Below are positions 79-8,908 of a stretch of 8,908 bases of DNA, in pieces. The notes beneath the pieces were generated by a model. The model was not told where the DNA came from, did no database searches, and was given only the letters and a program-made list of their open reading frames with translations. This DNA is from Truepera sp. Lineage in GTDB: Bacteria > Deinococcota > Deinococci > Deinococcales > Trueperaceae. The stretch spans positions 1-8,908 of the forward strand of contig JAGXSO010000126.1 of NCBI GenBank assembly GCA_018333775.1. The letters run 5' to 3'. The first letter of the stretch is position 1. Every line of letters begins with the position of its first letter. Position numbers and translations under genes: made by a program.

Positions 79-257
79 AAGAGCCTCCTTTGTGCCTCTG
101 GGATAGGACTTGCTCCAGCAGCATCCTTCCTTGCAGATACGAGCTTACAGGCTCTGACAACCGTTCGGACTCGAGCTGGAGACTCCGGCACGGCGATCCA
201 TGCTTTCTCACGGTCTCCTAGACCTTGGAGGTAACGGTCTGCCGTGCCGTGTCCCAA
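79..257 (-). ncRNA. Candidate IS110 bridge RNA (two-domain structured 5' non-coding end)
   Basis: Seen in the sequence: on the minus strand two separate perfect stems close two consecutive domains. Domain 1 is closed by 9 bp (CGGCACGGC at 249-241 with GCCGTGCCG at 194-186). Within it AGACC (240-236) pairs with GGTCT (224-220) around an 11-nt loop, GTTACCTCCAA. Domain 2 is closed by 7 bp (CTCCAGC at 181-175 with GCTGGAG at 119-113). Known: IS110-group elements such as IS621 express a bridge RNA of about 177 nt from this position, with a target-binding loop followed by a donor-binding loop. The length, order and two-domain form fit. Inferred: domain 1 is the target loop and domain 2 the donor loop. 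The exact ends are not determined; the 3' end may reach into the transposase Shine-Dalgarno region. Confidence 0.5.
84..90 (-). promoter_or_regulatory. Ribosome binding site of the IS110 transposase
   Basis: AAGGAGG on the minus strand, 5 nt before the GTG at 78-76. It decides the transposase start and marks the downstream limit of the preceding non-coding RNA region. Confidence 0.75.
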
Positions 258-4724: not shown

Positions 4725-7700
4725 CTATTCCCCACGCCTGTGGGGATGAACCGTCCCTGGTGGCCACCGCCGCCTAATTCGCTGGCTATTCCCCACGCCT
4801 GTGGGGATGAACCATTGTGGAGCACGCTATGGGATGGCGATCACACCTATTCCCCACGCCTGTGGGGATGAACCGGGGAGGCGAACCCTTCCGGGATGCT
4901 GCTAGCACTATTCCCCACGCCTGTGGGGATGAACCAACGGACCCGGCGCCCCACCCACGAGGCCATGACTATTCCCCACGCCTGTGGGGATGAACCGCTC
5001 TAGCGAGCGGAGGTTAGGCGGGGGGGACTATTCCCCACGCCTGTGGGGATGAACCGAGCGCGCTGTCCGAGCCTTCACTGCCGCCACCCTATTCCCCACG
5101 CCTGTGGGGATGAACCGGTCAGCCATTAAGCCCGCAGTCTCGAACGCCCCTATTCCCCACGCCTGTGGGGATGAACCACCGTCATAGTTCGACCATCCCG
5201 TACTATAAACTATTCCCCACGCCTGTGGGGATGAACCGGTTCGAGCACGGGGTTGTGAACCATTTCACAACTATTCCCCACGCCTGTGGGGATGAACCAT
5301 GGTGGAGGTCATTATTTACGCGGGGGGGATCTATTCCCCACGCCTGTGGGGATGAACCGTCATGGAACCAGTTTCAGGCCGCGGTGCAGCCCTATTCCCC
5401 ACGCCTGTGGGGATGAACCGAAAGGGAGAGCAAAATGACAACAAGGCGCTACCTATTCCCCACGCCTGTGGGGATGAACCGAAGTCAATAATCTGCCCGC
5501 CGATAGCCTCGGCCTATTCCCCACGCCTGTGGGGATGAACCGGGGCTTGCGCAACTCCCGGCGGTGCTTAACCCCTATTCCCCACGCCTGTGGGGATGAA
5601 CCGATGGCTTCAGTGCCCGCTCTTGAAGTAGTCTTCTATTCCCCACGCCTGTGGGGATGAACCGAGGCCATCGGGAACTTAAACACGTCTAGCTGGCTAT
5701 TCCCCACGCCTGTGGGGATGAACCGTTTCAGGTTGTGGTGGGCAGGCACGTCTACCACTATTCCCCACGCCTGTGGGGATGAACCGCAGTCGCTTAAAAA
5801 GCTTAAGGCGCTGCAAACTATTCCCCACGCCTGTGGGGATGAACCGCGCGAAGCGGGGCCGCACGCGGTCGGGTTGGACTATTCCCCACGCCTGTGGGGA
5901 TGAACCGTCGTCTAAGACAAGCAGCTTCGCCTCAGCCACTATTCCCCACGCCTGTGGGGATGAACCGTATACTTGAGAGGTGCTCGTGACGCGCAGAGCT
6001 ATTCCCCACGCCTGTGGGGATGAACCAGTTGAGCAGGCCGTAGTAGTCTGGGCAGAGGCCTATTCCCCACGCCTGTGGGGATGAACCGGCGCGGCGTCAG
6101 CGGCGGCCAGCGAATGCGAACTATTCCCCACGCCTGTGGGGATGAACCAGAGGGCCAGGCGTTGTGGCCGGCGAAGTTCTCCTATTCCCCACGCCTGTGG
6201 GGATGAACCGTCGTCCCAGTCGGGGGCCAGGTAGCGCTCACCTATTCCCCACGCCTGTGGGGATGAACCGCTACCAGTAAGTTGAAAATCGTCAGGGAAA
6301 CTCTATTCCCCACGCCTGTGGGGATGAACCGAGCAAGAATCAGCGCGAGCCAGATTGAAATCCCTATTCCCCACGCCTGTGGGGATGAACCGCTGCCGCT
6401 GCACCCGCGCTCTCGCTGACAGGCCTATTCCCCACGCCTGTGGGGATGAACCCGAGCCACCCGGCATGTTGAAGTGCCGCTCGGCCTATTCCCCACGCCT
6501 GTGGGGATGAACCGCCGCTCTCGGTGCGCGGCACCTCTGGTACCATCTATTCCCCACGCCTGTGGGGATGAACCGTCTACGTTGCGTGTCCCGAAGTTGT
6601 GCGTGACCTATTCCCCACGCCTGTGGGGATGAACCGCTAATGCGCGGTACTCCGTTCTCGACATGCGCCTATTCCCCACGCCTGTGGGGATGAACCGATG
6701 CTCGAGGACGTTTGGCGGGAGGCCAAACCTATTCCCCACGCCTGTGGGGATGAACCGGCGGGGTGTGATGGTGAGATCGCCGTCTCCAACTATTCCCCAC
6801 GCCTGTGGGGATGAACCGTTAGGCAAGGAGCTGGAACGGCTCCTTGAAAGCTATTCCCCACGCCTGTGGGGATGAACCGCCCGCTATGGCAGGCGATGCA
6901 CAGCGATATCACTATTCCCCACGCCTGTGGGGATGAACCGCTCTTGCGCTGCACGCCAGCGATGATTGCCGACTATTCCCCACGCCTGTGGGGATGAACC
7001 GCATCATATTAGTCAGAAACCAGAAGTCAGCCCCTATTCCCCACGCCTGTGGGGATGAACCGGCCGCCATCCTCCTGGCGAAGGCCGCGCTAGTTCTATT
7101 CCCCACGCCTGTGGGGATGAACCGGCAGGTGATGCGCGAAGCGCCACGCAGCCTGACTATTCCCCACGCCTGTGGGGATGAACCGCCATATAGCACGAGG
7201 TACGCGCCGCCTCAGAACTATTCCCCACGCCTGTGGGGATGAACCGGTGCGGCTGGTCTACGTCTTCCCTACGGCTACTATTCCCCACGCCTGTGGGGAT
7301 GAACCGGAGCTGACGAAGGGCCAGGCGTCGGCACTGCTCTATTCCCCACGCCTGTGGGGATGAACCGCTCACGTACGCGAACATCCAGCCAATCAAACCT
7401 ATTCCCCACGCCTGTGGGGATGAACCGTCAGTATAGGGCGCACTGGCCAGAAAGGGCGGTCTATTCCCCACGCCTGTGGGGATGAACCGGCCTAGCGACA
7501 TAGTCTTAAGCGAGACGCTGCCTATTCCCCACGCATGTGGGGATGAACCGTTGGGCATCAGGCCCAGGGTGACAATAACCTCCTATTCCCCACGCCTGTG
7601 GGGATGAACCGGTTGAGCCCGCGCTCGTGCCCTCCTCAGCTGTCTATTCCCCACGCCTGTGGGGATGAACCGGGATGTTAGCAAGCCTACTCTACTCATC

Positions 7701-8643
7701 TACTCTATTCCCCACGCCTGTGGGGATGAACCGCCCAGCCCCCCGATTCAGGCGGCGGCTCCGTCCTATTCCCCACGCCTGTGGGGATGAACCGGAGCCA
7801 GCGACACTATGCAGGCCAGGGATGCCTATTCCCCACGCCTGTGGGGATGAACCGGTGATACGATTAGCTAACCCGCTGGATATGCCTATTCCCCACGCCT
7901 GTGGGGATGAACCAAGGCATCGTAGCGCGTCCTCCACTCCCACCACCTATTCCCCACGCCTGTGGGGATGAACCGTCCATTAACGCATCAGTAATCATCA
8001 CATCACCCTATTCCCCACGCCTGTGGGGATGAACCGCCGATTCATTAACGCCCAGACTGACAAATCTCTATTCCCCACGCCTGTGGGGATGAACCGCAGC
8101 CAGGATTAGCCCTACAGCTACACCGCCCTATTCCCCACGCCTGTGGGGATGAACCGTGACCAACCTGCACAGCCCCATGGAACCAGGGCCTATTCCCCAC
8201 GCCTGTGGGGATGAACCGCGGCGGGTGGCAACGAAAGCGCAGCCGCGTACCTATTCCCCACGCCTGTGGGGATGAACCTTCGTGCCAGATACCGGTCTCG
8301 CCGCTGAAATCCTATTCCCCACGCCTGTGGGGATGAACCGCGCCTACAACCTTCTGGGCCTCTGCTGGCAGTCTATTCCCCACGCCTGTGGGGATGAACC
8401 GTTGTCGCTATGCTCCTGGGCGGTCGCGCGGTTCTATTCCCCACGCCTGTGGGGATGAACCAGGATAGTCATTTCCACTCCTCCAGGGCTTCCCCTATTC
8501 CCCACGCCTGTGGGGATGAACCGTAGCGCAGGGCAGGTCTGGCTGTCATCGGGTCTATTCCCCACGCCTGTGGGGATGAACCGCCGTTTGCGGCGCAGGG
8601 TCGCTAGGGCGCGGCCTATTCCCCACGCCTGTGGGGATGAACC
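4725..8643 (+). CRISPR. Type I-E CRISPR array, 65 repeats and 64 full spacers
   Basis: I count 65 copies of a 28-nt repeat, the first starting at 4725 and the last at 8616. It begins CTATT, contains CCCCAC-GCCT-GTGGGG (6-bp stem, 4-nt loop) and ends ATGAACC. All copies read the same except the one at 7522, which has A for C at position 14, in the loop. Start-to-start distance is 61 nt in 46 cases, 60 in 14, 62 in three and 59 in one. Spacers are thus mostly 33 nt, or 32 if the next base (usually G) is counted with the repeat as in E. coli. ATGAACC plus that base would be the 8-nt crRNA 5' handle after Cas6e cleavage. Transcription is expected rightward from the leader. The last repeat is perfect, and only 8 nt of a 65th spacer follow before an insertion sequence. 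I found no duplicated spacers by eye. Confidence 0.99.
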
Positions 8644-8651: not shown

Positions 8652-8908
8652 TGTCAAGGGCGTTTTATTTTTGGACAGATCGGGCGGTTTAGAAGTTGAC
8701 ACTTTTGGCGGGTAGTTTAGGGCGGCATAATCACCTCCATTCCTGAGCTAGGCAGTCGTGAGCCCTGCCTCACGCCGATGCTTGAGGCGATAGGACTCGC
8801 CACGGATATTGATGGTGGTGGCATGATGGAGCAACCTGTCGAGCAGCGCGACGGCCAAAACCGGATCGGGAAAAACGTCTCCCCACTGGCCATAGGACTT
8901 ATTCGAGG
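8652..8908 (-). mobile_element. IS21-family insertion sequence, istB-side (right) end, partial
   Basis: The IstB C-terminus is followed on the minus strand by about 96 nt of non-coding sequence ending at the array. The terminal TGTCAA (8652-8657) and an inverted copy TTGACA (8696-8701) lie in this end. IS21 elements begin with TG and carry repeated motifs in their ends for IstA binding, so 8652 is taken as the terminus. The istA gene and the other end are beyond the window. The array may continue on the far side. Confidence 0.75.
8748..8908 (-). CDS. istB: IstB-like transposition helper ATPase (IS21 family), C-terminal fragment
   Basis: On the minus strand an open frame enters from the right edge and ends at TAG (8750-8748), giving the last 53 residues. 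They contain SYGQWGDVFPDP, LLDRLLHH and NIRGESYRLK, the conserved C-terminal pattern of the AAA+ helper protein of IS21 elements. IstB binds ATP and DNA, selects target sites and stimulates the IstA transposase. The Walker motifs would be upstream, beyond the window. The visible part has no stop or frameshift. Confidence 0.9.
   Translation of the reverse strand, partial: SNKSYGQWGDVFPDPVLAVALLDRLLHHATTINIRGESYRLKHRREAGLTTA

Follow-up and report, generated by a model that had tools for sequence, protein, structure and literature searches.

The closest described systems are the bridge RNA of IS621 and the seekRNA of ISEc21. According to the parts of the IS621 report drawn on here (PMC11208160), its bridge RNA lies upstream of the recombinase with a promoter at the joined element ends, and carries two guide loops, each with a left and a right arm that include the core dinucleotide. 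The locus described here is similar in having a putative RNA upstream of the recombinase, two predicted two-armed guide loops and, in relatives, a promoter-like junction. It differs in its target, a Shine-Dalgarno sequence where IS621 uses a REP element, and, as judged by eye and outside any alignment, in the lack of a separate 5' stem-loop before the first domain, which some relatives seem to have. ISEc21, in the portion of its description used here (PMC11187229), shares with our locus an upstream non-coding region and guide segments for both target strands, and its circle-junction promoter has a promoter-like counterpart in relatives of our element; unlike our element it targets a site inside IS3-family transposase genes, and a 74-nt seekRNA is its abundant form, the RNA of our locus being predicted from sequence. 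Both published systems already show the guide loops, the core, the placement in the left end and a promoter at the junction (PMC11208160, PMC11187229). What is new here is a guide spelling the complement of a Shine-Dalgarno sequence, and a search of titles and abstract openings, covering few subscription journals or preprints, returned no IS110 or bridge-RNA Shine-Dalgarno targeting among the matches listed.

The window, by which we mean the whole stretch analysed (8,908 nucleotides of a Truepera sp. contig), begins with the left end of an IS110-family element (positions 1-271), whose transposase is encoded on the minus strand and continues past the left edge; of this copy, the larger part of that gene and the entire right end lie beyond the window. 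The DEDD transposase starts with a GTG at 78 (1-78, minus, VGEVFVGIDVSKARLDVAVRPSNGSY), leaving 26 residues visible before the window edge. Pfam found no family in this 26-residue piece. A profile built from five relatives' transposases matches it with 27.1 bits, and a relative with a similar transposase start, L021, carries PF01548 and PF02371. A Shine-Dalgarno sequence, AAAGGAGG, precedes the GTG (84-91, minus), and the structured region sits just upstream of it, as the earlier note had placed it. The element's left end (262-271, minus), mapped by comparison with multi-copy relatives, consists of a CT core (271-270) followed by TGTATCTT; within it, TATCTT (267-262, minus) corresponds to the -10 half of the promoter expected on end joining, as in the junction promoter of relatives. 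Membership of the IS1111 group, in which the guide RNA lies in the downstream end, was considered and rejected because the structured, covarying region lies upstream of the transposase. The same IS110 layout was found in the aligned relatives, in a comparison confined to the region upstream of the transposase rather than a survey. In 37 relatives the order left end, RNA, transposase, right end was found on a single strand, to which the parse was confined.

On the minus strand the region folds into two consecutive domains of 64 nt (186-249) and 69 nt (113-181). The two perfect stems that the earlier note had drawn around them are both present in the inverted-repeat listing at 100% identity, one of 9 nt (186-194/241-249) and one of 7 nt (113-119/175-181). 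The first, P1, with its 5' side CGGCACGGC at 241-249 and its 3' side GCCGTGCCG at 186-194, closes the predicted target-binding loop, which contains an apical hairpin (GGTCTAGGAGACC, 212-224). The putative donor domain is bounded by the outer stem CTCCAGC (175-181)/GCTGGAG (113-119). Inside it come an inner closing stem pairing GTCC (167-170) with GGAT (123-126), and the apical hairpin GAGC...GCTC (141-154). In the common plan, the target loop inside P1 reads AGACCG, left guide, hairpin GGTC/GACC and right guide ending AGC, and the donor loop reads GTCC/GGAT, left guide GAACRGTTG, hairpin GAGC/GCTC and right guide TGCAAGG; the letters are those of the window, and relatives vary.

Alignment A2, comprising 20 non-coding ends (the window and 19 relatives) aligned purely as sequence, carries these stems through compensatory change, the outcome that the bridge-RNA reading called for. 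Over 21 pairs (419 cells), 89.0% of cells held standard pairs vs 66.2% after shuffling, and 17 of the 21 pairs had changed on both sides, with a covariation score of 0.630 vs 0.204 shuffled. Slid controls left 33.7-46.4% of cells paired, a contrast that is flattered because the inner closing stem was moved one column after the first count; the structure itself was drawn from the window's row. All nine pairs of P1 had changed on both sides. In the apical hairpin of the target loop four pairs were counted (81.3% of cells paired), and the corresponding hairpin of the donor loop was paired in 92.5% of cells. The inner closing stem was paired in 96.3%, with two of its four pairs changed on both sides and two invariant. 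The count covered the 9-bp stem and these three further helices; for the outer 7-bp stem, counterparts of other sequence were seen by eye, uncounted, in several relatives. The stretch 79-263 is more stable than dinucleotide shuffles on the transposase strand (-73.3 kcal/mol, z -3.0) and likewise on the opposite strand (-74.9 kcal/mol, z -3.8), and therefore folding alone gives no strand. The RNA core as modelled spans 112-255 (minus). The transcript of 175-180 nt foreseen by the earlier note gives way to a shorter one, probably running from ~255 to 108, about 150 nt.

A covariance model, R1, was built from the 20 ends of A2. The window scored 117.6 bits as a member of the training set. R1 matched 75 of 90 loci, 55 of the 75 being outside its training rows (copies included), and gave no match in the other 15. 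Among 346 genomes of the phylum centred on G001 it had matches in 16, six of which had supplied model sequences; it also matched 1 of 60 genomes of the G005 phylum, and 17 of 39 genomes of one order inside the G001-phylum set, a search overlapping the first. Related elements were also sought through the transposase. With alignment A1 at E 1e-50 they occurred in 31/398, 6/198 and 9/188 genomes of the phyla centred on G002, G001 and G004 (those of a Burkholderiaceae, a Streptomyces and a Deltaproteobacteria genome, respectively), and a one-protein search at E 1e-20 found them in 18/200 genomes of the G002 phylum. Among viral sequences the A1 search gave 25 loci, and the one-protein search 13 stretches, none of them confirmed. 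Plasmid loci are also among the related elements; a plasmid search with the window's element end as query gave no match. An exact motif scan of genome contigs returned 17 matches, none of which on inspection had the conserved end or an adjoining IS110 start. Outside the guide arms, the window RNA is nearest to L109, L111, L110 and L106 (64-65% identity), and is 61% identical to that of a Deinococcus element, L022.

Genomes with several copies define the element ends: the core is mostly CT, the left end reads CT followed by TGTATCTT or similar, and the right end before the core is often AC[AG]GTTG or AC[AG]GTCG. These end patterns left one of nine multi-copy groups (G222) unresolved. Removing 18 matches without a parsable left end and 8 repeat copies from the 75 R1 matches left 49 elements, and removing a further 12 without a right end left 37.

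These ends allow the loop arms to be compared with the DNA on either side of the insertion. In the window, the predicted left target guide TTACCTC with the core position CA (226-234, minus) matches the left flank CTACCTC at 6 of 7 positions. With the first core base included, guide and flank share the run TACCTCC, and the probability of a random 7-mer occurring in that 16-nt interval is 0.0006. The right target guide, TGAGAAAG (203-210, minus), was assigned from relatives with a known right flank and from the R-K of CasA (see below). The left donor guide would be GAACGGTTGTCA (155-166, minus), several multi-copy relatives ending in AC[AG]GT before the core and the window's own right end lying outside. 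The candidate right donor guide, GTATCTGCAAGG (129-140, minus), is read from the sequence and is largely conserved in A2; within it, TGCAAGG is complementary, allowing one G-U pair, to CCTTGTA in the left end of the window's element. The right ends of relatives were located by their match to the donor guide, and the ends of several multi-copy elements agree independently.

Across relatives the target arms follow the flanks. The left guide was identical to the 7 bases left of the core at 3.63 positions on average, vs 2.25 with exchanged flanks (n=49), and the right guide to the 6 bases right of the core at 4.38, vs 1.73 shuffled (n=37); at these fixed offsets 0 of 20,000 shuffles were as good, left and right alike. 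When three offsets were allowed, the left guide reached 4.86 vs 3.09 (0 of 5,000 shuffles). These counts are dependent because related elements stand in both sets. In L083, L084, L085, L052, L027, L095 and L088 the left guide and flank agree poorly and the right, TGTTA, agrees well; the left guide of this group may be offset or differently used. Structure, covariation, upstream position and guide-flank match, all read from the DNA itself, support the earlier proposal; of the two outcomes that the earlier note named as refuting it, stems that do not covary and a guide RNA at the other end as in IS1111, neither was seen. We put at about 93% the probability that an IS110-group insertion sequence has its bridge RNA here. 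In the circular form of the element, the joined ends would create a promoter, recognisable by sequence in relatives, from which the minus strand of the window copy would be transcribed from ~255 to ~108. The first loop would act as the target guide, its left arm UUACCUC copying the left flank and its right arm pairing with the right flank, and the second loop would recognise the donor, formed by the ends of the element itself once they have joined. The RNA would presumably be bound by the transposase.

The opposite-strand sX15 match described below, the Shine-Dalgarno target and the insertion at the casA/casB junction go beyond the earlier note. To the right of the element lie Cse2, Cas7, Cas5, Cas6, Cas1 and Cas2 of a type I-E system, then a CRISPR array. 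The array (4725-8643) holds 65 repeats matching CTATTCCCCACGC[CA]TGTGGGGATGAACC; beyond it, cut by the window edge, lies the C-terminal end of an IS21-type IstB helper (8751-8906, minus; PF01695, 2.8e-17). Among the best 120 of 2296 Cas7 matches, the best named relative is Calidithermus roseus (80%), others reaching 85%, and the host likely belongs in or near Calidithermus; the thermophilic host assumed earlier is plausible on this showing, and not more than that.

The insertion site is AAGGAGG (269-275, plus), the ribosome-binding site of casB, which matches the guide, is intact after insertion and ends six bases before the casB start at 282 (casB/Cse2, 282-881, plus; PF09485, 8e-29). The last codons of casA, EVEGAKGN and a stop (272-298, plus), have a similar tail in CasA relatives and are severed by the element. 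casA appears to overlap casB by 17 bases, placing the casB ribosome-binding site within casA, with the last residues of CasA replaced by the element. Since the window's right flank lies outside, the right target guide yields a prediction: a flank CT-TTCTCA, by which the uninterrupted casA-casB junction would carry AGAAAGGAGGTAGAGG. The predicted casA reading is AGA AAG, then GAG GTA GAG GGT GCT AAA GGA AAT TAG, giving a CasA C-terminus of R-K-E-V-E-G-A-K-G-N-stop. In 11 aligned CasA relatives, R-K-E stands at the predicted place in 8, Q-K-E in two and R-E in one, and four have a GAKGN-like tail. This is support rather than proof, because the 11 were picked post hoc for a similar tail out of 94 returned, whose last residues were inspected, and because the guide gives only the R and part of the K.

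CTCC, complementary to GGAG, occurs in the target guides of the window and its nearest relatives, and we take these guides to resemble the 3' end of 16S rRNA. When insertions were grouped by this motif, a criterion set after the flanks had been seen, 11 of 17 CTCC-guide insertions had a start codon 7-15 nt past the core that opens a frame of 60 or more codons, vs 3 of 39 with other guides (L067, L055 and L115; Fisher, 2e-5). The 11 are the window (casB), L110, L106, L111, L144, L026, L109, L147, L160, L164 and L162; the remaining six are L105, L107, L149, L155, L063 and L161. This comparison includes six further loci (L152, L153, L160, L161, L162 and L164) whose left ends and guides had been entered manually; L111, a second copy at another site, was kept, and L031, which has a CTCC guide and in which no left end was found, was left out. 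Five of the 10 downstream genes other than casB contain a Pfam family (TOBE, xylose isomerase-like barrel, dienelactone hydrolase, short-chain dehydrogenase and the start of an IS3-type transposase).

With a target guide complementary to a Shine-Dalgarno sequence, the element would enter ribosome-binding sites, its left end facing the gene start. The left end begins with CTTG, and AAGGAGG would thus be rebuilt on insertion. The window copy would have entered the casB ribosome-binding site in the end of casA, replacing the last residues of CasA and leaving the casB start signals intact, and we infer that it is neutral for casB. On balance we consider it probable that a clade of IS110 elements has target guides that imitate the anti-Shine-Dalgarno end, uses ribosome-binding sites as landing pads genome-wide, rebuilds them from its left end and keeps the downstream start signals, and that the window copy entered the CRISPR-Cas operon in this way.

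An explanation that competes with Shine-Dalgarno targeting accepts the bridge RNA and attributes the association to a few related elements that happen to use G-rich targets. We hold it to be rather unlikely. In its favour, 114 of 583 AGGAG sites across these loci (19.6%) satisfy the start-codon criterion by chance, the grouping was made post hoc, and the elements concerned are related. In a tree of 58 transposases (that of the window absent), 8 of the 9 Shine-Dalgarno-labelled elements, all eight from one order, group together, with L026 apart, pointing to few independent events; the label needs two changes vs 8.6 when shuffled. The labels follow a hand list in which L155 and L063 are unlabelled despite their CTCC guides, and support at the node uniting the eight is weak (94/26). 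Against the by-product explanation, the 11 of 17 clearly exceed 19.6% (binomial, 6e-5), and several of the downstream genes, casB included, are recognisable. L148, L150 and L155, sisters of the Shine-Dalgarno group, stand beside sites of CCC directly followed by CT, with matching guides, and L148 and L150 have T-runs to the right of them.

There is also the question of which strand the RNA comes from. Rfam's one match in positions 1-400 is sX15 (RF02234) at 102-263 on the plus strand (40.2 bits, E 2.2e-05 for 400 nt), on which basis the functional molecule would be a small outward-running RNA that might regulate the bridge RNA, or transposition, in antisense. Over the whole window, other weak Rfam matches lie mostly in the CRISPR repeats. 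A separate match, glycine riboswitch-like, occurs at L107:450-628 (minus) with 71.6 bits vs a gathering score of 110. The type locus of sX15, a family reportedly defined through RNA sequencing in Xanthomonas, is on plasmid pXCV183, beside a truncated IS110 transposase and on the opposite strand to it; the same end is matched by R1 with 84.5 bits, as a member of its training set. L067 has an sX15 match of 120.2 bits, its R1 match lying on the other strand. From the arrangement in pXCV183 and L067, sX15 appears to be an IS110 non-coding end taken on its other strand. Our locus and sX15 are of a common type, an IS110 non-coding end matched by R1, and differ in that sX15 is annotated opposite to the transposase strand and in that the window's 40.2 bits fall below the Rfam gathering score of 55. 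A scan of 19 related loci gave no sX15 match at E 0.05 in 18 of them. In the window, L019 and L067, sX15 coincides with an IS110 non-coding end, opposite to the transposase strand.

Since the sX15 match sits on the other strand, the strand of the junction promoter matters. Of 37 relatives, 21 had joined ends that were promoter-like (at least 9/12) on the transposase strand, and 0 had such ends on the reverse strand. Mean scores in these relatives were 8.62 on the transposase strand, 7.05 on the reverse and 7.12 for shuffles, and the usual form is TTGACN-17-TATCTT. Only the -10 half is visible in the window, the right end being outside; a sigma-70 scan of 1-420 found no promoter on either strand, which is expected if the promoter requires the right end and offers nothing to a plus-strand RNA. 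At paired positions, G-U exceeded A-C on the transposase strand (30:11 in A2 and 62:30 in 48 ends, the distinct ends within the best 56 R1 matches), the excess being only 31:20 among 28 ends outside the model. Two further strand tests did not discriminate: folding energy favoured the transposase strand in 26 of 48 ends, and wobbles at guide-flank mismatches stood at 15:20 on the left and 11:8 on the right. The plus strand was weighed on these grounds and not adopted, given the junction promoter and the G-U excess on the transposase strand, and a plus strand carrying the functional molecule appears improbable. We conclude from these sequence patterns that the functional RNA is most plausibly on the transposase strand, with an additional outward RNA possible; sX15 itself seems to represent the other strand of a bridge-RNA locus, or else a genuine antisense RNA. 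A reading without guides, in which the inverted repeats are DNA-binding sites or form a structured 5' leader that controls the transposase, would suit a region adjoining the transposase start, and is very improbable, as it leaves the tracking of flanks by loop arms, element by element, unexplained.

The bridge RNA described here adds to its family a lineage that is plausibly thermophile-derived, and R1 provides that lineage with a covariance model. A further suggestion is that sX15, a catalogued small-RNA family, is an IS110 bridge-RNA locus on the other strand. If Shine-Dalgarno targeting is true, the element aims at a signal repeated in every genome and restores that signal on entry, and an RNA-guided element has many sites available yet spares genes. 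Such an enzyme would put cargo directly upstream of translated genes.
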